A DNA stretch of 25,549 bases from Chromera velia (Eukaryota > Sar > Chromeraceae), in the NCBI GenBank assembly GCA_018398765.1, contig JAHBMJ010001293.1, positions 7,501-33,049 of the forward strand. Reading direction: 5' to 3'. Position 1 is the first letter of the stretch. The number at the start of each line of letters is the position of its first letter. The notes under the pieces are model-generated. The model worked only from the letters and a program-made list of their open reading frames with translations, ran no database searches and was not told where the DNA came from. The position numbers were made by a program, and so were the translations under genes. This document shows, in pieces, positions 1-25,549 of this stretch.

Positions 1-290
1 GAATGGGCGTTCGGGCAGAGAAATTCCGCGCAGTCTCTCTTCTGTATCCATCCATGCATCTCTGATCACACGTACGTCCTTCAAGGTCCAGCTTCCCTCA
101 TCTCTCTCTCTCTTCAAATATCTGACCATACCCATATCCCCTATTCCCCTTTTTCCTTGGCAGTACTTTCTGAACGATTTCTGCCGAAGACTTCAATGCC
201 CGATCAAAAAAGGAAGGTTATTCGTTTTGTCAATTGACAGTCCGTCTCTTCCTCCCTGCTTGCGTACCCTGCCTGCCTCCCTGCATACAG
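1..290 (+). other. 5' region with candidate first exon and intron
   Basis: Positions 1-163 are pyrimidine-rich and hold no clear ORF. An acceptor-like TTGGCAG ends at 163. The stretch 164-216 is open in two frames and contains ATG 196 followed by MPDQKRK. A GTTATT at 217 and an acceptor CATACAG ending at 290 would join this in phase 0 to the long exon, which is open from the acceptor onward. The open frame also reads back through 234, but without an ATG (it begins with TTG). A first exon outside the window is equally possible. No promoter motif was recognised. Confidence 0.3.
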
Positions 291-3200
291 ACAGACTTTG
301 GACCTTCTGTGTGCATTGCAGAGAGGCAGAAGCGGGAAGTCAGGACCCGTGAAGCGGGAGGGTCCGGCGGGAACTCCGTCCTTTTGCCGGAAGGCCAAGC
401 AGAAGGGGGCGGGGAGGTGATTCAGTCTGAGACACTCTTGCAGGAACACGAAGAGGCAGAGGAAAAATTCGGCCAGAACTGTGCCACTTCCAGTGGCAGT
501 CAGTCGAACGATTCCGTCTCCGTAACGGTCGGACAGAAAGGGCCCCTCCGCGCCCCTTCCACTTCTTTCCTCGCAGCTGCCTCTTCAGCCGCAGCCACCC
601 GATCCTCTTGTCCCAGTGACCGAAAGAGGCGGTTTCCCTCTCCCCATGAGAGAAGGAGGGCGGATGTGCCGAGGGGCCGATCTGTCGCCCCGAGGGAACT
701 GGGGGGGCCCTCGTCTCTCTCTCCGTTCCCCGCCACAGCGTCCCCTCTCTCTCGGTCCCCGTCTCCGTCTCCAGGCCGCCGCCGGAAGAGACAAAAGGGG
801 GACAAAAAAGGAGGGGAAGAAGGGGGGGAGCAGTTGGAAGAGACAGCTGACGTCTCCATGGCCCAACCCACAAATCCGATTTTCCACCATCCCAAGGGAA
901 AGGAGGAGGTGGAGAAAGAGGAAAAAGGAAAGGAGGAGAAATTTCTCTTCCCCTCTGTTTCCATGGAGCAGGGGGCAAAAGGAGAAGGGGAAGTGAGTGA
1001 GAGGGAGGGACAGGAGGAAGACGAAAAGGTGAAGGACCAAGCGGTTGTTCATGAAGACGATTCAAAAGAGAAAGAGAATGAGGCAGGGAAATGCATGAAG
1101 AAGGAAGAGACAGAGAAAACTGACGGCGAGCCTTCCTCTCTCTCTGCTCCTCCTGAATCTGCCGAAGGGGGGGAACCACCAAAGAAAGAAAAAAAGAAAA
1201 AAATGACTAGAGAGCTACAAACGCTTCACCAACCCTACGCATGGTGGGACCGAATGGAATTGGCTCAGAAGAGAAGGAGGGAGCAGAAAGCGGCCGCACA
1301 GATAGCTACACTAGAAGCTGCTGCTTCTGCAAGCTGCAGTCCGGAAAAGGGGGCGGGTGCGTCCAAGGCATTGACCTGCAAATCTCCAGAAAAAAAACGC
1401 GCAGCCTCGAAGAAGACTCCTACCCGTCCCTCTTCCTCGTCAGTCGTCCGCCGCCATCCCCGTTCTGCTTCTGCTCCCCCTTCCCCCCCAAAGAAGAACG
1501 GAGGGGGGCAAGAGAGAGAAGACGAATCCGAAGGAGAGGACGGAAGGGAGAAAGAAAAAACGAGAGAGGAAGAGGTGGCCAGCCAGCAGCCGAAGCAGCA
1601 CAAGTCTCGAATGCAACTAGAGCTTGAGAGCCTGATGAATGACCATCGCTATCATGACTGTGGTGGGCATGTGGCCAGTGTCAGTGGTGAAGGGGCGTGT
1701 GCAGCTGTCTCTCTCTCTCTCGGCAGGGGATGCAGAGAAAGAAAAGAGGGTGTGGCAAAGCGCCCCATGAGTAGTGTGCGGGTTGACAGCGGGATGAGGG
1801 AAGGAGGGGAGAAAGAGAAAGAATCTTCCCAAGTTGCCCCTCAGGGGTCTTCATCTTCCTCTTCTTCCAGTGCATCTGCTTCTCCGTCGTCTTCCTCTTC
1901 CTCCTGCACCCACCCATTGTCTGCGGCAGAGAGCACAGGAGCGAAGGAAGAAAAGGACGAAGCCCCGTCAGATGTGATTCAAAAAGAGGGGGCGGAAGAG
2001 GAAGGGGAGAAGGAGCTCAACAACAAGTCGGCGATCAGAGGGGTCAACTGGAGTGAGGCAATGCAGGCTTGGAGGGTATCCTACCAGGGGCGTCTGAATG
2101 TTTGGAGAAAGTTCGCCCCTGCAATGTCAGTCAGTCACTCCGTCAGTCAGTCACCTAGTACGTGAATGAATGTATGAATGAGTGAGTGAGGACCTGAAAG
2201 AAAGGCTTTAATTGTTTGATTTCTTTGGGGAGTCCTGGTGCAGATCACACAGCTTTCTACTTCTTGTTGTTGCCCTTTTTCAATTAGGCGAGATTTTTGA
2301 GTAGTTGATGGAAGCGGTCAAAGGGCGGGAAGGCAAGCGGATCGATCGAGAGAGAGAGAGAGAGTATTGTTTCTCGCGACGAACACACGCAGAAGAGGAG
2401 ACCCCGTCGTGCATCGACAATACAAAAAAAAAGTGTGCATGGTAAAATCTTCTCGATCGATCTGCATGTATCCTTTTCAGGTACGGAGACGAGAGAGCCT
2501 ATTTCCTGGCGGTCGAATGCAGAAAGGAAATGGAGAAAAGGGCTACGCTTGGCGTGGCATGGTCGGACGCGTGGCTTCTCCAGCTTCCTCATTTGAATGC
2601 CCAGGGAGGAGGAGGGGAAGATAAAGGGGAAGAGGGCAAAAACGATGGAGAGGACAGATCGGAATCGCAAGAAGAAGAGAAGAAGGCCGAGCCTGTCGAT
2701 TTCCAGACAAAATGTGTCCAACCGAAGACACAGAGTAGGTCTCCCTCTATGCAGAATCGATACACAGCACGTACACACCAACAGCTTCACGCAATGAGCC
2801 TGTCGGACGCCGTATAGATACATTTGCAGTCTTCTCGTTGTTGTTCTTGCGTGCTTTCCTTCATGTGGGCCTATAGATAGAATGAATGAATGAATGAATG
2901 AATGTTCTTTCCTGCCGGCAGTCATTTGGATTTGCCGTTTCCTCATCAGTCTCTCTCGCGATAGCTTCGCGCAGTACGCAGCGCAGCAGGAACGTGGCAA
3001 AACATGAGAAAGAGAAGCACCGATCCACTTCGCGTTTCCTCATTCAGCATCAGAAAAAAAGGATACCGTTCCATGCCTAGTCGTCGGTCATCCAGTCAAT
3101 GTCCTTTCGACAGGACACGCACACAGAATGTACACTTGAGCACATCCACTCGTGCTCGATCAAATATACAAACTGCTCTCTTTTTTTTGTTCCTACCTTC

Positions 3201-4602
3201 TTCATTCATGTCTTTCTCTCCCCCATTTCTTTCTCGCACGCGCTCTTTTCTCCTGTCTCCTTTCTTTCATTTATTCATCATTCCCGTGTGTCTTCCTTCC
3301 TTCCTGTGTGCCCTCCCTGACACACACCCTCACGATTTCCCGCCTGCCTGCCTGCCTGCCTGCCAAAATGCATGCAATGCCATGCATTGGGACGATGCCG
3401 CATGCCCTCAGGTGGCCTGAACATGTTGCTCCGGCGCCCCAACTGCGAACACGGGCACAGGCCGAGTAAGTGCGAGGCGTGTCTGTCCAAGTCCCTCTGG
3501 CGCCCCCGCTGCGAACACGGGTGCAGGCCGAGTAAGTGCGAGGCGTGTCTGTCCAAGTCCCTCCGACGGAGCTGCGAACACGGGTGCAGACCGAGTAGGC
3601 ACGAGACCTGTCTCTCTCGGGTGAATGGGACGGAGGGGCAGAAAGAGGATGTCCGAAGCCCGCGGATCCCCCCACCGATTCTCCCCGTACGGAAACAAAA
3701 CGACAAAGTGAAGAAGGGAGGAGGCAGACGGGAGAAGGAGCAGACCCGTCGGCGTGCGTCATTTGCAGGTCCGTCCGGACACACATGATACGAATGTCGT
3801 CCTCAGGATGGAAGAGAGCCTCAACTATTCAATGCGATTTCAAAAACATATGACGGACTGTTGAACAAGCAAAAAGCCAACGCTCTGGAACCTGTCTCGT
3901 CTTTTTCAAATCCCTCTGAAAAGAAAGTCTTGGACTCGCTTTCTTTACTGTCTGTTTGAGCGCCCCCCCTTTTTCAGGTCTCGTGGAGGCACGCGAAAAG
4001 TACGATCATGCATGCAAGCATGAAGCTTGGGATATTCCGTCTGATCGACTCAAGCTCGGTCTGGTCGATTTGCTGGTCGGTCTGTCCTAATTCAATCGGC
4101 CTGAGTTGAAGGTAACACAGACAGCAAACGATTCTTGCCATGCCTGCCGTGATCGAAAGAAAACGAGGATCTCGATGGCTTCCTTGTTCTTTCATACAGT
4201 GCATTACTGGATGAGCATACCCTTGAGAATCTGTGCGAGGGAGGAATTTGGTGTGATGGAGCCCGAGGCTGTTTTTTGCTTTGAAGGATACGTCGATCGA
4301 TGTTTGCGAGCTGAATCCTTTCCTTTCTTTTTGTTGACACTCTATAGCTGCAGGTTCTCGAGATGAAAGCCCGGCTGTGGAGATCACTCACGACACTCGG
4401 GCAGCTGCGGTGGGTGTGTCTGTGTCGTTTGTGTTTTGTTTGGTTGCGCGACATGTATCCTTGTTTGTTCGCTTCATTTCGATTCGTGTATCTCTCTTCG
4501 GAATAGAACGAATAGAAGGGGAACACACACAAAGAAAGGGATCTCCTTTCATCATGCAACTCGCTCCTCAGTTCCCGTGCCCCCATTTTTTTATATGCAC
4601 TC

Positions 4603-4673
<71 letters not shown>

Positions 4674-7600
4674 ACTGACGGCGCTCTGGTGTTGGATAAG
4701 GGAGTTCGTTTCGCATCCTCCATCTCAAATTCCCCCTCGTCTGTTTTCCCTGCGCAGACAGATCCTTCCCCAGCTGCAGCCTCACTGACTGGATTCCACC
4801 CTGTTCATGAGAGTGGGTGGATGAACGCGTGCAGTCAGGGGATGTTCGGGGGTCCGTTTCCCTCTCAGTACGACGAGGATGACGGAGACGGGATCTCGGG
4901 GCTGTCTGAGCACCACGGGGGTCTCCGATGGATAAAAAAAGAAGTCGGAGAGGAAGAGAGGGACGGGGCGTCATCGGGGGGAGGAGACGCCGAATTGAAC
5001 AGAGACAGAGATGACGGGAAAGGGGGGGAAGAAGGTTTCGTCAAGTGTCGCTGCTGTGGTGGCAGAAAGCACGGAGACTTTTGCTCCATGTGCGGCGATC
5101 AAGACGGGGGAGGTGCGCCTGCCTCCTCCCTCGTCCGGATCTGCATCAAGGCGTCTCCCGACGGGTCTGGACCCTCCATCGACCTTGCGTCTGGACAGGA
5201 GCTGGAAGGCATCTCCCCAGCGGCGTTCGGTCTCATCCGCCGCCCCTTCAGTTCCCCCTCTTCTGCTTTCGCCCCCCCTCCCGTTCCTACATCCAATGGA
5301 GCTAGGGGGTGTGTGAACCCAATGGCCAAGAAAAGGAGAGGACGGCCTCCGAAAGCGGAAGCGTTGAGAAGACAACAAGAATTGGCGGTTTCTTCCTCTT
5401 CCGCTTCCTCCTCATCTTCTTCGTCCTCTTCCTCATCTTCTTCCTCGTCAGATGCCTCCTTCTCGAGAAGGCTCGCGAGTGCCGGGCGCGGCATGCCCCG
5501 TCTGTCTACCCAGAAGGAAAGGGGGTTTGCCCGTCGTGGGGGGGGGGTCTGCGCGGCGGAAGAAGCAAAGAGGCCGGAGGAGAAGCCGAGGGCCCGGCGG
5601 CACCGGGGGAAAAAGGAAGCGAGGGCTTGAGCGGAGAGGTGGCTCCGAAGAGATGGATAAACAGATCGAAAGAGTTCAAACAGCAGCTCATTGCTGCTGC
5701 AAACATTCGACGCAAGAAGATTCAGTCAGTCAGTGATTGAGGATGAATGAATAGCGGAGATCGATGGAGGCGCTTAACACCGAAAAGGAAAAGCCGGACT
5801 AAGGTGTGCGTGCGAGTCGAATGAGCCCATGACGTACGCGAGTTGATGCGAATGTAGAAAGAGCATAAGAAGAATTGCAATCTAACGTCTCGTTCAGTGC
5901 ATATGTGGCCGTCCCGGAAGGGCCCTCATACCGTTTCGTCTTGAGACGACTCGACCGATCTGTCGATCTGTTTTTCGCCCCCTGCCTGCCAAAGGCTTCA
6001 GGTAGCCGTACGTCGCCACCCATTCCCATTTCTTTTTTCTGTCTGCATTGGCAGTGGAGTTTTGTGTTCATGAAGTCTTTTGTCAGGTTGCGCCTCTTCC
6101 GGACTCCCATTCGTCTTTTTGGCCTTTTCTTGTGCTGCGTTTCGTTCATACAATCGTGAATCGAACCGTGCCCGTGGTTTGTTTCCATCGCTGACTGTCT
6201 CCTTCCTTCCTTCCTTCCTTCCTTCCTTCCTTCCGCGTGCGTGCAGCCCCCCAGTCAACCAGATTCCGGGGGAATGGGTCCCGAAATGGCGGAGGATGAC
6301 CGACAGGACTCTCAGGGTAAAGAACAGAGACGCCCAACGTGAGTGAGTGAGTGAGTGACCGGATTCGCGACATGCGAAGGTGATCGCTGCGTCTCGATCA
6401 TGCATGCGTATCATGACGGGATCACTTATTGATTTCCTTCCACAGTGGTCAGATCATGCATAAGCTTCTCCCCCTACTCTGCAGGCAAGGGAGAAGAGAA
6501 CAAAAACTCTTGAGAGAGCAGTGCGTGTGGAAGAATTCGATGAATCTGCATGACGCATGACGCACTTCGTGAGAAAGAGGGGGGGTATGAGCGAAAGGGT
6601 GCGTGCGTCAATCATTCCGTCCCGATATGATTTTTTCGTTTCTCATAACGCTTCTGGATATCTTTCTGTGTGTCTGTATGTTTAAAAAGTGCATGCATGG
6701 GAAGTGTGTCTACATGTAAAGACCACCCGCATCCCACAAACGATCGACCGCATTTTCTGTACATTCTCCGACGCCACAAAGCGACTCGTCCCTTTTTTCT
6801 CCAGTTCATGCGTGTCAAAACACGTGCACACAATTAAGCATATGCCGGTGTACATGTAATGGCAGGCGACAAGATGGCGGGAGGTGGCCGCTCAAAAGCT
6901 GCCCAGAAAAGGGACCGATGGCTGAAGCCACAAGTTGTGAACGGGCGTGTGGCGGCTGTGGTTGGCGACGGTATCTCTCTGGACAAGTCAGTGGTTGCAT
7001 GCGCGCAGTTTCTCTCTCTCTCTGTGGAGCCCAAATCTCTCCGAGGCTTCCTCTCGGTCTCTCTGTGCGTCTGTGTCTGACTCCTTCCTCCGCCTCTCTC
7101 TCTCTCTCCCTCTCTTTCTCTCTCTCTCTCTCTCTCTACCTTCCTCTCTCTCTCTCTCGCCCTCCTTTCTCCCTCTGCCTCCTCCAGCTTCTCTCTCTGC
7201 ACATGTGTGCACGTGTGTGGATCGTTCGTTTGTCTCTTTGATCCGTGTTTGTGGATCCGTGTTTTGGGATCGACAGTGAGATGAGAAAGAACAAACTGAT
7301 CGATCATTCTGTAGGTTGATGAGCGTATATGTGTGTATGCGCACATCCATTCATGCAGCTCCACCTTGGGCCGCGACGTCGGGACCGGCGTCTTTGCAGA
7401 CCAGTGAGTCAGTGGATTCTTTCGAAGTATTTGTTTGAGTTCAGAGAAACTGCTGCTAGAGCTGGCCGAACACTTTATGAGAAAATTATCTGGGTTAGAG
7501 GGTGCGAATGCGTAGCGAGCGCGGGTGGATGTGAAGTCGAACAAGGGACTGCTGTTTTTTTCGAGCTTTCAGACCCTTGCATTGCAGCATTTCTGTTTTT

Positions 7601-9520
7601 TCGTCTGCCCCCTCGTACCGCGGGCTCACGCTTCAGAGGGCTTGCTTTGTTCGCACGTATACACGGGACCCCATGAATATTGTACGAAGGCTTGTAGTGG
7701 TTTTCTAAAATGTTCAGATCTTTCATCCTCAGTTCGCGTGCCGCAAAACGAGATCGAAACTTGCTTTGGTGCTTCCCACAAACTGTTTTTCTTTTGTCTT
7801 TTTCTGTGCTTTGTTCTCTTCTTATCTGTCTCTCTTTCTTTCTTCCTCTCTTTTCTTTCTTTCCTTTGTTTTCTTTCTTTGTTTCGTTCGTTCTTTCATT
7901 CTTTCTTCCTTTTGACAGCTTGGCTGAGTGACTGGCAAGAAGGGGCTTGAAGGGCTCCCGGAGTTGTGCGAATGGACAGGTAGCCTCTTTGGACGGACCG
8001 TGTGGTGTTGGCTTGAGTCAGACACACAAACAAACAAACAGACAGATAGCAGCGCTTTGCCAGTATGCATTTGTATGCTGCACGTCTTCGTGTTGCGCAC
8101 AGGGTGTTCGAGAGAAGAGACGTGATCACAGAGTACTGCGGCTACGACATCGACAGGGAGACAGCCCTCGAACTGCGCTGGGAGGGAAGGGACACCCACA
8201 TAATGTCCTTGAAGAACGGCGGCGATTGCTTGGACGGAAAGGTCAGTGAGTCTCTCTATTAGTCAATGAGCCAGTCAGCAGTCAATGAGTGAGTGAATCA
8301 GTCAGGAGGAGCTGAAGAGACTTCCTGTCCGTCGGCGCGCTCACATGTCGACTTCTGTCTTTTTACTTCCTGACTGCCTGCACTGATTTGTGAGTCTGAC
8401 CATCCAGGGTTTTTTTTTCCTAAGAAGAATTTGTGAACCTCCTTTTGTTCTTGGTCCACCTGCCTGAACAAGTAGAAGGGGAAAGAGAAGATATCCGTCT
8501 GTGAGTTACCCCCCCCCCCCTCGCTCTGTTGTGTGTATGGACGCGAACGCCATCCGTCTTGGTTGGCTGCCTCAACATGATTATGTCATGTGCAGGCGTA
8601 CGCATTTCTCTTTATGTACGCATGAATCACGAACATTGATGAGTGAGTGCAGCTTGTCGGAGGCGCTGTTCAGGGTCTCCCGGGTGGGCAGTTTGCGAAC
8701 GACGGGAACAGGAAAAGCATCCTCGATGATCCGGCAGAAAAGAAGGAGAACAAGAACAACGCCGAGAAGATCTGGGTCTGGGATCCCACCATCGTTCGTT
8801 CGTTCGTTACTTCCTTTGTCTCGCTCGTTTTCTTTTCTCCATTCTCTTTGGTTCAATCAGGTATCTTATCTTCAAGAAAGACAGTCACTCACTCACTCAC
8901 CTTTCTTTCTTTCTTTCTTCATTTATTTATTTACTTATTTATTTACTTATTTATTTACTTAGTTATTTACTTAGTTATTTACTTATTTATTTACTTAGTT
9001 ATTTACTTATTTATTTACTTATTTGCATCTCCTTACCGAATCAGTGAGGCAGGGCAGAAGGCTAGGCAGCCATCAAAGCACACGTAGACACGCTCACAGG
9101 AAACGAAGCAGCCATTCAGCAGCCGAACAGGCATGCAGACAGGGCGACCAGCTAAACAGGCAGGCAGCGACGGCGTCCTCGGCGCGAATACAGACGTTCC
9201 GATCGCCTCTGCAGCAGAAAATTCGTTTTGTTTTTTTCTTTTGTTTTGATATGCATGCCTTAATTTGGACGGTGTAGGCATTTTCTTTCATACAGAATTC
9301 TTTTTCAGAATTCTTTCTGTATGAAAGAAAATGCATGCATTATTTTGATATGCATGCCTCAATTTGGACGGCGTGAACCGAAGGAACCAAAAACTTATGT
9401 GCCTTCCTTTCTTGACTGATGCCCCTGCTTCAACCGAATTGACCCTGGGTCGAGTGCCCCTTTTTCCTTTCCGTTTTCTGTTCAAGGTCGCGATCTTCTC
9501 TTCAATGCGCTCACACACAC

Positions 9521-9582
<62 letters not shown>

Positions 9583-10451
9583 TCTCTCTTTCTCTCTCTC
9601 TCTCACACACACCGACTTGCACGCAAGTTTGCAGGGCAAGACCAGGGTCTTCCTCAGAGCGACTCGGCGCATCGAGATCGGAGAGGAAATATTCGCCCCG
9701 TGAGTCAGTCCGGATCAGTCACTCACACTCGCTCGGTTTGATTTTTCTTTCATTGCATTTTTTATCTCAGTGACACCGGTTTCCAATGATCTCGGGGATG
9801 TCGCCAGACTCGCAGATTGATTGAATCTCCTACGGCATTTTTGCGTATGGCGTGTGTCTCTCTCTGCCTTTCTGGCTGTGTTTTCTTCTTTGGTTGCCTC
9901 CATTTCGACATTTCGTCTCATCTTGCAGAGGCTGTTTTTTTCTTTCTTTCTCTCTCTTGCTTTGGGCTCGAGTGCAGAAGTTGGGCCTTAATTGGCAGGC
10001 CCTTTTCCTGACCTTTTTTTTTTCGTGACTCAGCGCTTCGTTTCCATGCTTCCAGCAGCTGTTCGTTCTTGTTTCTTCCTTGACTTTCTTCTCTCCGACT
10101 GTCTGCTCAGTTTGTCAGTGAGTGACTGGAAATTAATTAAGCGGGACGGTCGAAAGAAGATTAAATCGAGTAGCTTTCCACTCCGTCATTCTGATCAAAA
10201 TTGAGAGACCGCTACGCAGAGAGGGATCTGACTGTTAAATTTCGTCATTTTTTGAAGCCGCCTGGTACCAACCCAGCCGGTGATGCCCTTTCCTTCATGA
10301 CCTTTCCTTCCTCTTCTTTTCTGTCTTCGCCTGAACTTCATCTGTGCGGCTGCGTGCGTGTGCGTGTGTGGGGGNNNNNNNNNNNNNNNNNNNNNNNNNN
10401 NNNNNNNNNNNNNNNNNNNNNNNNNNNNNNNNNNNNNNNNNNNNNNNNNNN

Positions 10452-10504
<53 letters not shown>

Positions 10505-11035
10505 ATGTGTGCGTGCGTGTGTGTGTGCGTGTGTGCGTGTGTGTGTGTGTGTGTGACTCTGTGTGTGTGTGTGTGTGTGCGTTCCTTGGGGCAACTGTTC
10601 GGCTGACTTCTGGGGGCGGAAAGAACATCTGTTTGTCTGTTTGTCCCTGTGACTCTTTGTCATCTGTCTGTCTGTTGGTGGTTTTCTTTTTGTTTGTTTG
10701 TGTGCAGGTACGACCGACGCTACTGGGAGATTGAGGACGAGTGGACTCTGAGGGAAATGGAGCGGATCGACGAAGAGAACCTGCTGGAAGAGGAGGCGGC
10801 AGCCAGGAGAAGGGAGGAGGCAGCCAGGAGAAGGGAGGCTGCCGAAGCGAGGAGAAGGGAGGCTGCCGAAGCGAGGAGAAGGGAGGCTGCCGATGCGAGG
10901 AGAAGGGAGGCTGCAGAAGCGAGGAGAAGGGAGGCTGCCCAAGCTAACCGAAAGCGGAAGGCAGAAAACGCCGGAAAGGACAACAGGACGGTGAAGAAGG
11001 GACGGGTTGGAGGGCAGCAGAAGAAGTCTTCGTGA
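196..11035 (+). CDS. AP2 domain / AT-hook / SET-domain protein, multi-exon (about 1,528 aa)
   Basis: Proposed nuclear chromatin regulator that binds DNA (AP2, AT-hook) and methylates protein lysines (SET). Exons by eye: 196-216 (tentative), 291-2125, 2481-2734, 3412-3768, 3978-4058, 4354-4409, 4674-5724, 6247-6338, 6866-6986, 7359-7403, 8103-8241, 8653-8793, 9635-9699, 10708-11035 (TGA). Phases agree at each junction. With one base added at the G-run 5538-5547, the coding length is 4587 nt, a multiple of three. Approximate residues: AP2 586-640, CxHx6CxxC repeats 713-775, Cys/His cluster 990-1005, AT-hook 1085, poly-Ser 1106-1130, SET 1285-1430, repeat tail to the end. The start is uncertain: ATG 196 needs a weak donor (GTTATT, 217), and the true first exon may lie upstream of the window. 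Main doubts: exon 4 could simply end at TAA 4088-4090, which would make two genes, and the frame change in 4674-5724. The AP2 and SET assignments are firm; the single-gene fusion is an inference from phase. Confidence 0.62.
291..2125 (+). other. Exon 2: charged low-complexity N-terminal region and first half of AP2 domain
   Basis: Long exon rich in Lys, Glu and Ser with several basic clusters (RKRQK, KKEKKKK) and poly-Ser runs near 1850-1910. Such low-complexity regions are common in ApiAP2 proteins. The last ~35 codons hold the start of an AP2 domain: IRGVNW, then WRVSY, then RKFAP. The donor GTCAGT at 2126 cuts after two bases of a codon. No other domain was recognised in the first ~580 residues. 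The matching ORFs on the opposite strand here are purine/pyrimidine shadows. Confidence 0.75.
2023..2559 (+). other. AP2 DNA-binding domain split by intron 2126-2480
   Basis: AP2/ERF-fold domain of the ApiAP2 kind. The first part, up to 2125, gives SAIRGVNW...W+V...+RKFAP. After splicing (phase 2, donor GTCAGT, acceptor TTTTCAG) the second part, from 2481, reads YGDERAYFLAVECRKEMEK. The order RGV-x-W, W, R..F, YG..A..LA...R+E matches the family pattern of three beta strands followed by a helix. Splicing rebuilds the motif without any gap, which is the best evidence for this intron. The family binds short DNA motifs; the target here cannot be predicted. Confidence 0.85.
2481..2734 (+). other. 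Exon 3: end of AP2 domain and acidic/basic linker
   Basis: Completes the AP2 helix and continues as a Glu/Lys-rich linker (GGGGEDKGEEGKNDGED, then QEEEKKAEP). The donor GTAGGT at 2735 is phase 1 and meets the phase 1 acceptor at 3411. Without splicing, the frame would run on to a stop at 2817. The following intron (2735-3411) carries a (GAAT)n tract and a long pyrimidine-rich section. Confidence 0.6.
2881..2904. repeat. (GAAT)n microsatellite
   Basis: Six tandem AATG/GAAT units inside intron 2735-3411. Confidence 0.9.
3412..3768 (+). other. Exon 4: three CxHx6CxxC zinc-binding-like repeats
   Basis: Three tandem copies spaced 22 and 21 codons apart: CEHGHRPSKCEAC, CEHGCRPSKCEAC, CEHGCRPSRHETC. 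Each has the ligand pattern C-x-H-x6-C-x2-C. In the third copy the second Cys is His, which could still bind zinc. At DNA level the units at about 3437 and 3503 are nearly identical over ~60 bases, so the array grew by recent duplication. I recall similar CEHG-type repeats in stramenopile and other algal proteins of unknown role. A zinc-binding function is an inference. The rest of the exon is basic (KVKKGGGRREKEQTRRRA). Confidence 0.65.
3978..4409 (+). other. Exons 5 and 6: short linker exons joined across an ambiguous intron
   Basis: Exon 3978-4058 (or to 4079) reads LVEAREKYDHACKHEAW and joins the previous exon in phase 1 (G|GT). It can use donor GTCTGG at 4059 or GTCTGT at 4080, both phase 1. 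If neither is used, the frame stops at TAA 4088-4090. The next exon, 4354-4409 (SRDESPAVEITHDTR), also needs phase 1 at its acceptor CTGCAG and leaves in phase 0 at GTGGGT (4410). This matching phase is the only link between the AP2 half and the SET half. Intron 4410-4673 ends in a (CT)n(GT)n tract directly before CAG. Confidence 0.45.
4605..4670. repeat. Compound (CT)n(GT)n microsatellite at an acceptor
   Basis: CT repeats to 4635, then GT repeats to 4670, immediately followed by CAG at the 3' end of intron 4410-4673. The tract probably serves as the polypyrimidine tract. Confidence 0.9.
4674..5724 (+). other. Exon 7: Cys/His cluster, AT-hook, poly-Ser; contains an apparent frameshift
   Basis: Opens in phase 0 with TDGALVLDKGVRF. 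Around 5041-5095 a Cys/His cluster reads KCRCCGGRKHGDFCSMCGD (four Cys plus His), a possible small zinc site. At about 5323-5350 lies an AT-hook, KKRRGRPPK, whose core GRP inserts into AT-rich minor grooves in known proteins. A poly-Ser run follows (5389-5450). The frame then ends at TGA 5628, but the frame one base back, from the G10 run at 5538-5547, stays open and gives RWINRSKEFKQQLIAAANIR. That frame leaves in phase 2 at donor GTCAGT (5725), as the next exon requires. A one-base assembly error in the G-run is the simplest explanation. Confidence 0.6.
6201..6234. repeat. (CTTC)n microsatellite
   Basis: Tandem CCTT units just before the acceptor GCGTGCAG (ends 6246) of intron 5725-6246. 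Confidence 0.9.
6247..6986 (+). other. Exons 8 and 9: region leading into the SET domain
   Basis: Exon 6247-6338 reads PVNQIPGEWVPKWRRMTD. Exon 6866-6986 continues to WLKPQVVNGRVAAVVGDGIS. Entry is phase 2, the internal junction phase 1 (C|GC, Arg) and the exit phase 2 at GTCAGT (6987). No pre-SET cysteine cluster is visible. An ATG at 6859 lies just before the acceptor, so a separate start for a SET-only gene is possible but not needed. Confidence 0.6.
7093..7170. repeat. (CT)n-rich tract
   Basis: Nearly pure CT dinucleotide and TCTC-rich sequence in intron 6987-7358. It creates long false ORFs on both strands. Confidence 0.85.
8921..9023. repeat. ATTT/ACTT tetranucleotide array with 12-base higher order
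   Basis: Inside intron 8794-9634. TTAT/TTAC/TTAG units are arranged so that ACTT or ACTTAG recurs mostly every 8 to 12 bases. It follows a (CTTT)n run. Confidence 0.85.
9244..9374. repeat. Hairpin flanked by direct repeats (MITE-like)
   Basis: Two 32-base direct copies (9244-9275 and 9343-9374, two mismatches) flank an inverted repeat with exact 18-base arms (9278-9295 and 9317-9334). The loop itself contains two GAATTC sites. It lies in intron 8794-9634. The form suggests a small non-autonomous element or a duplicated hairpin. No transposase is present. Confidence 0.75.
9523..9612. repeat. Compound (CA)n(TA)n(CT)n microsatellite
   Basis: CA to about 9550, AT 9551-9580, CT to about 9603, then a short CA run. 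It lies just upstream of the acceptor at 9634. Confidence 0.9.
10375..10451. other. Assembly gap of 77 N inside intron 9700-10707
   Basis: The run of N is followed by a (TG)n tract from 10452 to about 10580 and preceded by TGTGTG. The gap therefore sits in a dinucleotide repeat and probably hides no exon. Confidence 0.95.
10452..10580. repeat. (TG)n microsatellite
   Basis: Near-pure TG with a few GC and TATG interruptions, in intron 9700-10707. Confidence 0.9.
10708..11035 (+). other. Last exon: end of SET domain and coding minisatellite tail
   Basis: The exon starts with the conserved SET end (Y-DRRYWEIEDEW). From about 10795 to 10945 a 24-base unit repeats in frame about five times and encodes the octamer AEARRREA with small changes. 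This should form a charged single alpha helix or coiled coil. A basic end follows with likely nuclear signals (NRKRK and VKKGR), then TGA at 11033-11035. Confidence 0.8.
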
Positions 11036-12314
11036 GCGAGAGAAGAGGGGACTCCTGGAAGGAAAAGGAAAGGAAAGGGGCAGACGGGAAGATAAGCAAG
11101 GGAAAGGAAAAGAAGGGAAGGGAAGAAAAGAAGCGATGCAGTCTTTTCCTCGAACAGAATCCAGTGAAATGACTCGGGGAGATACGAGAAGGCCAATTGA
11201 GTGCACCCATGAACGATGCGCCTGCTGGCTGTCTTCTTTTCTTCCTTTCTTTGCCTTTTTTCCTCTTCATTGACCGCATCGGCCTTCTATCCTTCCTTTT
11301 TCTCTTTTCTCATGTCCCGATCGACGAATCGACGCTCCGCTGTTCTTGAAACATGACCAAAGAAGCTGGGGGTCCTTTTTTCTCCCCTTCCTCCCTCCCT
11401 CCCTCCCTCATACCGTCCCTCATGGCTGTGCACTGCACACGTCCTTCCGATTTCAGACAGGAAGGACGTGTGTGCGCGCAAATCTCATTGTCATTGTGTG
11501 CGTTTCTGTGTGTGTGTATTTAACCACCCCCGTTTTGATGGAGGGCTTTGACATAGGCCTGGCCTTCGTACTCTCCGCGGGGGGGGTGGCGAGGGGATGC
11601 AAATCATCGTGTAGGGAAGGGAAGAGATAGGGGTTAGACGGTCCATGGAGGGGTGCATGGGGTGCTCAGGGGAGGGAGACTGACGGGAAGGGATGGTCGG
11701 TATGTCGTTCATGCATTCATCTCTTTGTACGTCTGTTCACATGCTTTGAAGTTGGTAGACATCCATCTGCATGTCTTTGTGTACAACAAGTCTTCCCCAT
11801 TCTCCTCCTCACTGCTTTCCTTTCCTGCTGCGCCCTCATCTGCCCATTCTGAACCTCCGTTCCGGATGCTGTGTGTAAATATCTGCATGAACGCATTTTT
11901 GTAGGTGTCTGGATCCTCCGGCCACCTGGTGTGCGTCCTTCTTTCCTTGTTTGCTGACGGCATTACAATCGATCGATCGAAGGGGGTCTGTGCATGGCAG
12001 AAGAGCACCGCATGGTGGTGAATGTTTTCCCTTCATGCATCTGTTCTTTCCCTTCCCGTTCCTTTGAATTCTTCTCTACAAATCCGCCCCTAACTCGTCT
12101 TTCGTTCCTCATCGATGAATCTCATGCAGCCTTCTTCTTTTTCCTCTTCACTCTGTCATTTAATTTTCTTCCTGCAATCATTCACGCACATCTGGCGGCT
12201 CCTCGTCTGTCTGTCTGTCCCTCGCTTCCTTCAATCTTCTCGTTCCTTTTCACTCATTCGACTGAGAGACAGAACAAGAGACACAACTCGACCCAATGAC
12301 AAAAAAAGGGTGAA
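11036..12314. other. Intergenic region
   Basis: Nothing firm was found. It opens with a purine-rich stretch (11036-11140) and then becomes pyrimidine-rich. A short ORF starting MEGFDIGLAFVLSAGG at 11538 and an acceptor-like TTTTTGTAG followed by open sequence near 11905-12020 were noticed, but neither joins to anything. This probably includes the 3' UTR of the AP2/SET gene. Confidence 0.5.
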
Positions 12315-23500: not shown

Positions 23501-25549
23501 GGTGTGCAGGTTTGTCTCCCTGTCCCTCTTCTCTGCCCGCCTACCTCCAGAATTCCTTCTGCCACCTGCGCGCTCTCACTGGCGACTTCCTGCCCAGTCG
23601 TTTCCTCGCTGTTTTCTGAACTGTTGTCCTGTGGGGAGCCGATCACAGCATCCTCTGCAATACATCCACACTCAGGAAAAGTATATGAATACCCACACGA
23701 AGCTTGTCTGATCTCCCTCGCATATTTTCTGAGTTGAACAGAAACAAACAAAGCACGGACGCAGTCAAATGATCAATCTCTGCACGGACGCAGTCATTCA
23801 TGCATGCATGAAAATCCGCTACAAGTGCTCACATCGGCCGGGCAACTTCTCTCTCGGTATTACAGACCCACCGCTGCAGACCGTGACGCCGTCACCAAAG
23901 AAACCTGAATTGCACGTGCAGGAAAAGGAACCGGCAATGTTCGCGCAAGTCGCGTTACCCTGACAGTTGTGGATTGCCCCTTGGCATTCATCAACATCTG
24001 CAAGCACTCAGCACATGCAAAATATGAATTAATGTGTTGGCAAGCGCATACTTGCATGCAGAAATCAAAAGGGGGCGGGAAAAACGGACGCAGTGACGCA
24101 AACAATGTCCATTTCTTCAGAGAGTCAGCTCGGCACAGGCACGAAGGAAAGACCCACCGGAACATGTGAGGCCCCCGCCAGTGAATCCGGTGTTACATGC
24201 ACAAGAAAACGAGCCTGCAGTGTTACTGCACGAAGCCTCGCGATGACAGTTGTGAGTGGTTCCTCCGCACTCGTCGATGTCTGCAAGCATTCACAAAAGG
24301 AGACAGACAATGGATCGAGGGGGCCTTTTCCTTGTGCCTCAGTGGAAGCCAAACAGAACAGCTTCGCAAACAAAGAAACAAACAGAGAGTTCTTTATGCC
24401 AAACAACTGCTGACCTGCACACGCCACCCCCGACCCGGAGAAGCCCGTGTTGCACGCACAAGAGAACGACCCGCTGTTGTCGGTGCATGTGGCGTCTGCG
24501 TGGCAGTCGTCGGCGGATGTGCCGCACTCGTCAATGTCTGCATTCAAAAGACAACGTGGACATGCAGGCAAGCGTGCAGGATGGTTGTTTCCATTGAACA
24601 GCACGACGATCTCTTTATCCATGCAGTCATCTTTAGTGAGACACGCTCACAGGCGTCTCAGACCTCTCCAGCCAGTCACCGAAGGAATTCAGGCTTTTGC
24701 CCTTCTATGCTCACTCACTCGTGCACGCCACTCCAGTGCCGCTCCAGCCGGCGTTGCACGAACATGAGAAGCTTCCGGCAGAGTTTCCGCACGCAGCATT
24801 GCTGTTGCAGTCGTGTGCCGCCGTGCCGCACTCGTCGATGTCTGCAGACATGCTCGTGCACATGCAAGGGGGGGGGGATCGATAGAGGGGGAAAAGGGGG
24901 CTGGTAATTAAGATGGGTTGCGTAGCAGCAGCCCATGTGAGAAAGACAGACAAAAGGCAGCCAATTTGGAAAAAAGCTGTGGCGATAAAACTCCGATCAG
25001 CAGCCCTCGCCACTCAATCCCAATCACACAGGGGGCACTCACTCACTCAAGCAGGCAGGCAGGCAGGCAGGCAGGCTGACCAGAGCAGGAGACCCCCAAC
25101 CCAGAGAAACCGAGGTTGCACGCGCACAGAAAGGACCCCGGCATGTCCGTGCACGCCGCGTCCGCGTCACAGTTGTGAGCCACCGAAGAGCACTCGTCGT
25201 GATCTGCATGCGAAGGGAGCGAGGAGACGTCGACGTCAGAACGAAACGACTCATGACGACCATCGCCAAAAAGCCATGCGTAGAGAAAGCGGGACGAAAA
25301 GAATCTTTGACAGGAACAAGCATGGGAAGAGGCACATGAAGACGCACAAAACCACGGGGAGAAGACGTAAGTGTGCATGATGATTGCCGGGGTTCTTACC
25401 ACTTCTTTCTCCCTGTATCACGGTACTGCAGGATTCTCTCAGTGCCCCCATGTATGTCATTCTTTTGCACCCACTTCCTACCCCCTCCGTCCTCTTCCCT
25501 TCCCTTTTCCTTCCGCTCTTCTCTTTTCTTTTCTTTTTCCTCCACGGAC
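15161..25549 (-). CDS. EGF-GAIN/GPS multi-pass membrane receptor, 5' partial (about 1,990 codons in window)
   Basis: Likely a plasma-membrane receptor. Exons, 5' to 3' on the - strand: about 25460-25400 (right boundary unresolved), 25203-25081, 24841-24719, 24537-24415, 24280-24158, 23997-23872, 23654-23545, 23247-23005, 22678-22388, 22035-21987, 21844-21261, 20992-20638, 20245-18939, 18461-17718, 17534-17182, 16808-16232, 15901-15161 (TGA). Phases match throughout; exons from the first EGF on sum to 5972 nt, which with the split base is 1,991 codons. Domains: five calcium-binding EGF modules, helical then beta-rich GAIN-like region, GPS, TM1, long cytosolic loop, about four further TM segments like the polycystin/LOV-1 core, acidic tail. 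No PLAT and no PKD channel domain were seen. The N-terminus and signal peptide lie beyond 25549. Ligand unknown. Confidence 0.75.
16232..16808 (-). other. Fourth and fifth transmembrane region exon
   Basis: A basic cytosolic stretch is followed by [20 protein letters not shown]. Then come TM4 ([20 protein letters not shown]) and TM5 ([20 protein letters not shown]). The pattern 'W..P ... W ... SF...RPL' recalls the LSSLLTSxxQPxKV-type segment of polycystin-1-like proteins. Exit is phase 0 at GTGCGT (16231), so that ALVRAL joins VRRKSR. Confidence 0.75.
16883..16958. repeat. 38-base perfect tandem duplication
   Basis: Two identical 38-base copies (16883-16920, 16921-16958) plus five further bases, in intron 16809-17181 of the receptor gene. 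Confidence 0.9.
17182..18461 (-). other. Second and third transmembrane region, two exons (18461-17718, 17534-17182)
   Basis: The first exon is mostly cytosolic, with an acidic DEDEEEKSS patch. It ends in [20 protein letters not shown] and a hydrophobic start, ADTAFTLA. The second exon completes the segment ([10 protein letters not shown]) and adds a long one ([21 protein letters not shown]). The order HPF...SR...ALFFG matches the region before the channel part in polycystin-like proteins. Phase 0 at GTCGGT (17717), phase 2 at GTAAGT (17181). Confidence 0.7.
18531..18640. repeat. (GAAA)n / (CGAA)n array
   Basis: GAAA units, then about eight CGAA units, then GAAA again, in receptor intron 18462-18938. 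Confidence 0.9.
18939..20245 (-). other. Long cytosolic loop exon (435 codons)
   Basis: It starts [12 protein letters not shown], then a basic [20 protein letters not shown] helical segment near the middle ([20 protein letters not shown]) resembles a degenerate IQ/calmodulin-binding helix. The second half is acidic, Ser/Pro-rich and disordered. In polycystin-1 the PLAT domain sits in this loop; none is evident here. Exit is phase 0 at GTATGT. Confidence 0.65.
20478..20519. repeat. Compound (CA)n(GA)n microsatellite
   Basis: In receptor intron 20246-20637. Read on the coding strand it is (TC)n(TG)n, the same compound type as at 4605-4670. Confidence 0.9.
20638..20992 (-). other. GPS autoproteolysis motif and first transmembrane segment
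   Basis: The GPS reads [12 protein letters not shown]...GC...CRCTHLTDF. It has the paired Cys, the two Trp and the HLT tripeptide where known GAIN domains cut themselves between Leu and Thr. About 45 residues later comes TM1 ([21 protein letters not shown]), then a basic stop (DRFRP). Donor GTCAGG at 20637 gives phase 1, which matches the next acceptor. A phase 0 GTTGGA at 20659 does not. Confidence 0.85.
21261..22035 (-). other. Beta-rich extracellular region before GPS, two exons (22035-21987, 21844-21261)
   Basis: A 49-nt mini-exon ([16 protein letters not shown], phase 0-1) leads into a 584-nt exon ([11 protein letters not shown] ... FDFGQ, phase 1-0). Alternating hydrophobic strands ([29 protein letters not shown]) suggest the beta-sandwich subdomain B of a GAIN fold, which in known proteins carries the GPS at its end. 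The mini-exon is needed to keep phase only if the phase 0 donor at 22387 is used. A direct phase 1 splice skipping it is also possible. Confidence 0.55.
22388..23654 (-). other. Helical extracellular region, three exons (23654-23545, 23247-23005, 22678-22388)
   Basis: Phases 1-0, 0-0, 0-0. Typical segments are [20 protein letters not shown], then [19 protein letters not shown], then [17 protein letters not shown]. The sequence is mainly amphipathic helix with few Cys. Its place before the GPS fits the helical subdomain A of a GAIN domain or the equivalent region of polycystin-1-like proteins. That assignment comes from position and composition, not from a clear motif. Confidence 0.55.
22819..22972. 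repeat. 77-base tandem duplication
   Basis: The unit containing AAGGACAAATCCGAGGAG recurs 77 bases apart (22821 and 22898), followed by an (AGAAG)n run to about 22990. It lies in receptor intron 22679-23004 and forms pyrimidine-rich sequence on the coding strand. Confidence 0.85.
23872..23997 (-). other. Calcium-binding EGF module 5 (single exon)
   Basis: 126 nt, phase 1-1, one codon longer than the other four. It reads [12 protein letters not shown]...[15 protein letters not shown], with an Asn-Cys-Gln insert and potential N-glycosylation at NAT. Donor GTGGGT, acceptor TTGCAG. Confidence 0.88.
24158..24280 (-). other. Calcium-binding EGF module 4 (single exon)
   Basis: 123 nt, phase 1-1. 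It reads [12 protein letters not shown]...[14 protein letters not shown]. Donor GTGGGT, acceptor TTGCAG. Confidence 0.88.
24415..24537 (-). other. Calcium-binding EGF module 3 (single exon)
   Basis: 123 nt, phase 1-1. It reads [12 protein letters not shown]...[14 protein letters not shown]. Donor GTCAGC, acceptor ATGCAG. Confidence 0.88.
24719..24841 (-). other. Calcium-binding EGF module 2 (single exon)
   Basis: 123 nt, phase 1-1. It reads [12 protein letters not shown]...[14 protein letters not shown], with six Cys and the GSFSC turn. Donor GTGAGT, acceptor CTGCAG. Confidence 0.88.
25051..25076. repeat. (GCAG)n tetranucleotide run
   Basis: About six GCAG units directly downstream of the donor of EGF exon 25081-25203 on the coding strand. 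Confidence 0.9.
25081..25203 (-). other. Calcium-binding EGF module 1 (single exon)
   Basis: Exon of 123 nt, phase 1-1. It begins DHDEC and ends [14 protein letters not shown]. Six Cys and the Asp/Glu calcium motif are present, though the second residue is His where Ile or Val is usual. Acceptor ATGCAG, donor GTCAGC. The donor opens onto a (CCTG)n repeat. Confidence 0.85.
25400..25460 (-). other. Candidate upstream exon of the receptor
   Basis: The open frame ends TVIQGERSG at a good donor (GTAAGA) in phase 1, as the next EGF exon needs. The right boundary could be the acceptor CTGCAG just before TACCGTG (exon start 25426), or the exon may run further right. No domain was recognised. From 25460 to 25549 only a pyrimidine-rich stretch is visible. 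Confidence 0.4.

Follow-up and report, generated by a model that had tools for sequence, protein, structure and literature searches.

On the forward strand of a 25,549-nucleotide stretch of the Chromera velia genome (C1291:7501-33049; the whole stretch analysed is called the window here), an AP2 DNA-binding domain is followed by a SET methyltransferase domain. This raises the question whether both are made as one polypeptide, as had been claimed in a preliminary description of the sequence. Comparison of the window with the rest of the genome (177.8 Mb in 4040 contigs) leads us to the view that the window probably represents one gene for an AP2-SET protein, and that six loci of this kind exist in the genome, the window included. 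For the family as a whole, the gene models make the fusion highly probable.

The two domains of the window

All exons described here lie on the plus strand. Exon 1, with a provisional 5′ end, is read as 324..2125, within an open frame at 174-2165 whose first in-frame ATG is at 858. It has a coding score of 0.43 per codon and encodes a low-complexity acidic/basic region, followed from position 2028 by the first part of the AP2 domain. The second part lies in exon 2 (2481..2734) and extends to 2538. The domain thus covers 2028-2538 and contains one intron, between the exons ending at 2125 and starting at 2481; taken singly, both part-exons match weakly. Against the Pfam model PF00847 the domain scores 22.6 bits (E 1.4e-4), below the cut-off of 33.3 bits. 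A second profile was made without the window, from the remaining AP2 domains of the loci studied. Here the joined exons reach 44.0 bits and fill all 53 profile positions; of 2000 shuffles, 1983 were scored, and the highest value among them was 9.1 bits. By this profile, the AP2 domain, previously placed at 2023-2559, is regarded as real. Pfam matches in the whole genome amount to at least 56 for AP2 and to 58 for light-harvesting proteins, a combination that fits a photosynthetic relative of apicomplexans.

The SET side starts with a linker exon that carries a PG-W motif (M2, 6247..6338) and lies behind a phase-2 intron, an arrangement shared with the paralogues described below. It is followed by a pre-SET exon (6866..6986) with the motif RW..P....G..(V)AVVGDG at 6916-6986, and by SET exons at 7359..7403 (GTGVFA, the GxG motif), 8103..8241 (ITEYCG), 8653..8793 (FANDG...NA, at the place of the N-H-S-C motif) and 9635..9699 (RVFLRATRRIEIGEEIF). 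In the last exon (10708..11035), YDRRYW at 10709-10726 marks the end of the domain; the C-terminal tail that follows, up to the stop codon at 11033-11035, is charged and repetitive. A run of 77 N (10375-10451) is located in the last intron, beside long GT repeats. Including the pre-SET motif, the SET region covers 6916-10726 in six exons, which extends the earlier assignment of a SET domain to 7359-10740. That assignment is borne out by scores of 30.9 and 32.5 bits against PF00856, above the cut-off of 22.4 bits.

A Pfam SET match at E <= 0.01 was obtained for all five aligned members of the family, and G32, G34, G52 and N101 are invariant in these five; the tyrosine preceding G52 is replaced by phenylalanine in C1740. 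The terminal YxxxYW is found in all four SETs whose last exon was located. GxG, YxG, the asparagine at the NHSC place and the final tyrosine are presumably the cofactor and catalytic motifs of SET proteins. By its domain match and motifs, the window SET is of the SET-domain lysine methyltransferase type, with activity and substrate as predictions. Among solved structures, a profile of five SETs matched vSET, KMT2C/D, EZH2 and SETD8 (E 1.4e-4 and weaker), the best being PBCV-1 vSET and the KMT2C/D SET domains (PDB 1n3j, 5f59, 4z4p; E 1.4e-4 and 1.8e-4). The vSET and KMT2C/D matches are remote and mostly confined to short stretches, so that specificity is not transferable; PBCV-1 vSET also ends in YGxxYW, comparable to YDRRYW in the window. 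The single window SET gave nothing better than E 0.53 in the same kind of comparison, and its top match was not a SET protein.

The same domain order at five further loci

With the window SET as a genome query, SET exons were detected on C1232, C1325, C1740 and C1754, and a second SET query added C2407, C4013, C3470, C1502 and C619. In five of these nine loci (C1232, C1325, C1740, C2407 and C1754), AP2 lies upstream of SET on the same strand. By the own-genome profile, C1232 has 11 AP2 domains, C1325 10, C1740 9 and C2407 7, and C1754 has one at 36 bits and a weak one. The Pfam model itself recognizes nine AP2 stretches in C1232, eight in C1740 and three in C2407, with scores of the respective open frames of 180.5, 179.9 and 119.1 bits; in the C1754 frame it recognizes none at E <= 0.1. 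The distance from the last strong AP2 domain to the pre-SET motif is 1.6-2.1 kb at the five loci and 4.4 kb in the window. According to a rough estimate, which takes the 178 Mb to contain some 30 AP2 clusters, such a cluster would be met by chance in a 6-kb same-strand neighbourhood in about 1 of 2000 cases.

The SETs of these paralogues are 44-54% identical to that of the window. Positions 1-12000 of the window share no DNA similarity with C1232, C1325, C1740 or C1754 at E <= 1e-10, and the adjacency of AP2 and SET is therefore not due to recent duplication. As the loci are old but related duplicates, they represent one retained arrangement and not independent fusions. A search with whole-domain Pfam models revealed no contig with both domains (at least 27 AP2 contigs and at least 21 SET contigs), in our view because introns split these SET domains.

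Gene models link the two domains directly. For C1232 (1774 aa), C1740 (1596 aa) and C1325 (1478 aa), one open frame of eight exons, free of internal stops and of N, can be assembled that begins with the leading AP2 domain and runs through to the stop codon behind SET. The C1325 frame needs the donor GAT/GTACGT, which was picked for keeping the frame, while TAC/GTCAGT four bases further on leads to stops. In C2407, a GTCAGT donor in phase 2 at the end of the AP2 frame fits the M2 exon. The phases of the seven SET-side introns (2, 1, 2, 2, 0, 0, 2) agree between the window, C1232, C1325 and C1740, and the six SET-side introns of C1754 agree in phase with these four modelled genes. For the paralogues, the first phase 2 was set by the way their first exons were trimmed, and it was confirmed from the AP2 frame in C1232, C1740 and C1325. 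Moreover, SET-side exon lengths of 45, 139 and 65 are constant across the modelled genes. In C1754, a change of frame separates AP2 from the linker module M1, a motif with which the AP2 frame of the paralogues ends on its 3′ side and which is also present in the window (5663-5722). Leave-one-out profiles of M1 had their own locus as top match in four of five cases (E 0.035-1.3), and those of M2 in five of six loci, the window being the exception.

Relatives of the SET domain without AP2

The remaining loci C1502, C619, C3470 and C4013 encode pre-SET and SET, without AP2 in the 9.5-9.9 kb examined at each. Nine further relatives match SET in one intronless stretch: C2021, C639, C2070, C528, C489, C3552 and, partly, C1248, as well as C3818 and C1429, which contain internal stops. 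None of the nine is located on a contig among the Pfam AP2 matches listed. Neither the viral contigs (36 pattern stretches) nor the prokaryote genomes (212) yielded a confirmed relative.

In a SET tree of 15 rows, with C489, C1248, C3818 and C1429 left out, all ten multi-exon SETs fall into a single group (support 100/99). C1740 and C2407 are sisters (96/98) and also share AP2 types. The window SET pairs with C1502 (90/81), a locus without AP2 across the 7.5 kb examined upstream of SET, and nothing else speaks as strongly against a secure link of the window to AP2 as this pairing. On the best tree the AP2 carriers are not a clade and three changes are needed; a single clade was not rejected (p-AU 0.123).

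From AP2 to SET in the window: repeats, splice routes and a frame change

Exon 3 (3412..3768; coding score 0.28 per codon) encodes three cysteine repeats of the CEHG type at 3444-3620, the third of which lacks one cysteine. They matched no Pfam family and nothing else in the genome at E <= 0.001; 48 weak genome matches have E values of 0.013-0.99. Such weak matches occur in many open frames across the genome, for instance in C571, C372, C1886 and C3686. A simple CEHG pattern had eight matches in real frames of the loci studied and none in shuffled frames. By this pattern, repeats and a SET domain share an open frame in C2021, C639 and C1248, and the repeats of the window gene thus fit other SET genes of this genome.

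The large exon 6 starts at 4674 behind an acceptor of 12.3 bits. Its first frame (4674..5537) contains a CxCC..CxxCG motif at 5046-5096 and an AT-hook core at 5328-5354. The zinc-type repeats and the AT-hook noted before between AP2 and SET can thus be traced, with the reservations that the third repeat is incomplete and that the AT-hook scores 14.7 bits, below the Pfam cut-off of 17.4. At a run of ten G (G10, 5538..5547) the reading frame changes, and the second frame of exon 6 (5548..5724) holds M1, which is weak when taken alone.

In a control of 137 held-out intron windows, the 95th percentile of the coding score was 0.1 per codon and the highest value 0.21. The first frame of exon 6 scores 0.21 as a whole and only 0.04 over its first 200 bases, a possible exon 4 (3978..4075) has almost no coding signal (0.02), and an alternative exon 5 (4354..4409) scores 0.25 over 18 codons. 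The other window exons range from 0.17 to 0.85; in two of them, 6247-6338 and 9635-9699, a different frame has the better score.

Without splicing, exon 4 runs into an in-frame TAA at 4088..4090, a possible end of an AP2-only product. As the link past this stop, donors at 4059 and 4080 had been suggested earlier. These we have to reject: in comparison with 36 donors of five modelled genes, scored leave-one-out and with 2.3 bits as lowest value, 4059 (GTCTGG) has -5.8 bits and 4080 (GTCTGT) 1.5 bits, so that both fall below all 36. The reference donors have G at +5 and T at +6 throughout and in no case T at +4. Two other routes are in frame and stop-free up to the G10 run, and in both the TAA is intronic. 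The first joins exon 4 in phase 0 from the donor CTG/GTCGGT after 4075 (9.1 bits) to 4674; the same nine letters form SET-side donors in C1740 and C1754. The second skips exon 4 and uses exon 5, from 3768 to 4354 and from 4409 to 4674, with donors of 8.8 and 6.5 bits and acceptors of 6.4 and 12.3 bits. Exon 5 as an obligatory exon was discarded, since it is dispensable once exon 4 ends at 4075.

None of the introns that could bridge the G10 run is convincing. The best candidate, from 5499 to 5637, was rejected for its weak donor (4.3) and weak acceptor (2.1). Partial duplications of window positions 4488-5807, including the intron, are found at C3608:3000-12999; they are 86-92% identical and their frames are broken. 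The C3608 copy of exon 6 lacks the G10 run, yet is out of frame at the same place. C3608 was considered as a further AP2-SET locus and dismissed, with neither AP2 nor SET beside its duplications. Phase-consistent splicing, as assumed originally, therefore holds up to G10 and again from there to the stop codon at 11033-11035, but not across the frame shift itself.

One gene, two genes or a decaying copy

The claim that AP2 and SET form one polypeptide is well supported by the common order at five further loci, four of them modelled with the same gene structure. It is less firm for the window than for the family due to the break at G10 and to the lack of AP2 in the 7.5 kb upstream of its nearest SET relative. 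The same two points, together with the in-frame stop at 4088-4090 and the low coding score of exon 4, could also be explained by two neighbouring genes, one with AP2 and cysteine repeats ending at the TAA, the other a SET gene further downstream, whose start could for instance be ATG 4821 in exon 6. We regard this as unlikely, as five loci with diverged SETs have the same order, strand and a similar spacing, three of them with a single open frame from AP2 to SET and phase-matched introns, and as the window offers two in-frame splice routes with good donors past the stop.

The frame change without a convincing intron, and the broken state of the C3608 duplicates of exon 6, would also be expected if the window were a decaying copy, that is a former AP2-SET gene now broken at G10 and yielding no full protein. 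Homopolymer length errors are common in genome assemblies. Furthermore, the SET exons are all stop-free with conserved motifs and splice sites, and these as well as exons 1, 3 and 6 score as coding, which makes decay quite improbable. With a single AP2-SET gene as the preferred reading, there is still a minor chance that two isoforms are formed, an AP2-only protein ending at 4090 by read-through of exon 4, and the AP2-SET protein by splicing at 4075 or skipping of exon 4. Both outcomes are permitted by the sequence, while the weak coding signal of exon 4 speaks against such isoforms; they are compatible with the AP2-SET gene.

Possible function and AP2 arrays

The product of the window gene would be a nuclear protein with AP2 at its N-terminus, a central region of cysteine repeats and AT-hook, and a SET lysine methyltransferase domain at its C-terminus. 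AP2 may provide sequence-specific DNA binding and, aided by the AT-hook, could bring SET to chosen promoters, where SET would use S-adenosylmethionine to methylate nearby histone or other lysines. AP2-guided lysine methylation is thus a plausible mechanism, judged from domain content. The prevailing view of apicomplexan AP2 factors is that they act as partners of chromatin enzymes, which they recruit to DNA. An AP2-SET family in a free-living relative would offer a way to test whether AP2-targeted lysine methylation predates parasitism.

The four loci C1232, C1325, C1740 and C2407 carry arrays of 7-11 AP2 domains, which are on average 38% identical within a locus (157 pairs) and 34% between loci (584 pairs). 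In C1232, domains 6 and 8 are 94% identical and lie in an array stretch of about 0.7 kb that is repeated with 88-89% DNA identity (at about 3010-4580 of C1232:12000-21999). From these repeated blocks it follows that at least the C1232 array has recently grown by tandem duplication. The domain 6/8 pair differs by one silent and three changed codons, too few for a selection test.

In animals, PRDM proteins, PRDM9 above all, combine sequence-specific DNA-binding domains (C2H2 zinc fingers) and a SET-type methyltransferase in one protein. The Chromera paralogues resemble them in joining DNA binding to SET, four of them with AP2 arrays, and the tandem growth in C1232 is PRDM9-like. The likeness is one of layout: AP2 takes the place of the C2H2 zinc fingers, of which the window pieces scanned gave no Pfam match, and SET is C-terminal. 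It is conceivable, though we put this forward tentatively, that the genome possesses a family of array-guided methyltransferases with 7-11 tandem-expanding AP2 domains and a C-terminal SET, an independent counterpart of PRDM9-like proteins, with targets that would shift with the array. The window gene would then belong to this family with one AP2 domain only, the place of the array being taken by cysteine repeats and an AT-hook. The AP2 arrays could in this case be a second example, beside PRDM9, of repeat arrays that steer a methyltransferase.

Comparison with described proteins

The preliminary description regarded the AP2-SET architecture as unfamiliar. As a pairing it is already known in one apicomplexan: the Toxoplasma AP2 factor TgAP2VIIa-7 (TGME49_202490), found with the bromodomain proteins TgBDP1/2/5, is described as carrying PHD and SET (PMC10470533), and the same gene is listed with a SET domain elsewhere (PMC5963570). 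Going by its description rather than its sequence, TgAP2VIIa-7 has ApiAP2 and SET in a single protein like the window gene, but differs by a PHD finger. No PHD was found in four pieces of the window (E <= 1) or in exon 1 (E <= 0.1), a scan that left the C-terminal tail aside. At the AP2-less SET relative on C4013 (39500-49000), a weak PHD_2 match lies upstream (E 0.002, below the cut-off), and PHD with SET recalls the corresponding part of TgAP2VIIa-7.

According to the chromerid genome paper the apiAP2 set is expanded; the words SET domain do not appear in its main text (PMC4501334). AP2VIIa-7 is named, and AT-hooks in Plasmodium ApiAP2 proteins are mentioned, in PMC6631176; in the portions covered of this paper and of PMC12246861, PMC9487757 and PMC3598677, no AP2-SET protein is described. 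The literature searched, with supplementary annotations outside its scope, contained no chromerid AP2-SET protein, array form or multi-gene family. What looks new is accordingly the multi-gene family of AP2-array-SET proteins in a photosynthetic alveolate.

Another gene of the window

On the minus strand of the window, four open frames at 23819-25417 each contain an EGF domain (Pfam EGF_CA or EGF_3) and make up an EGF-repeat gene.
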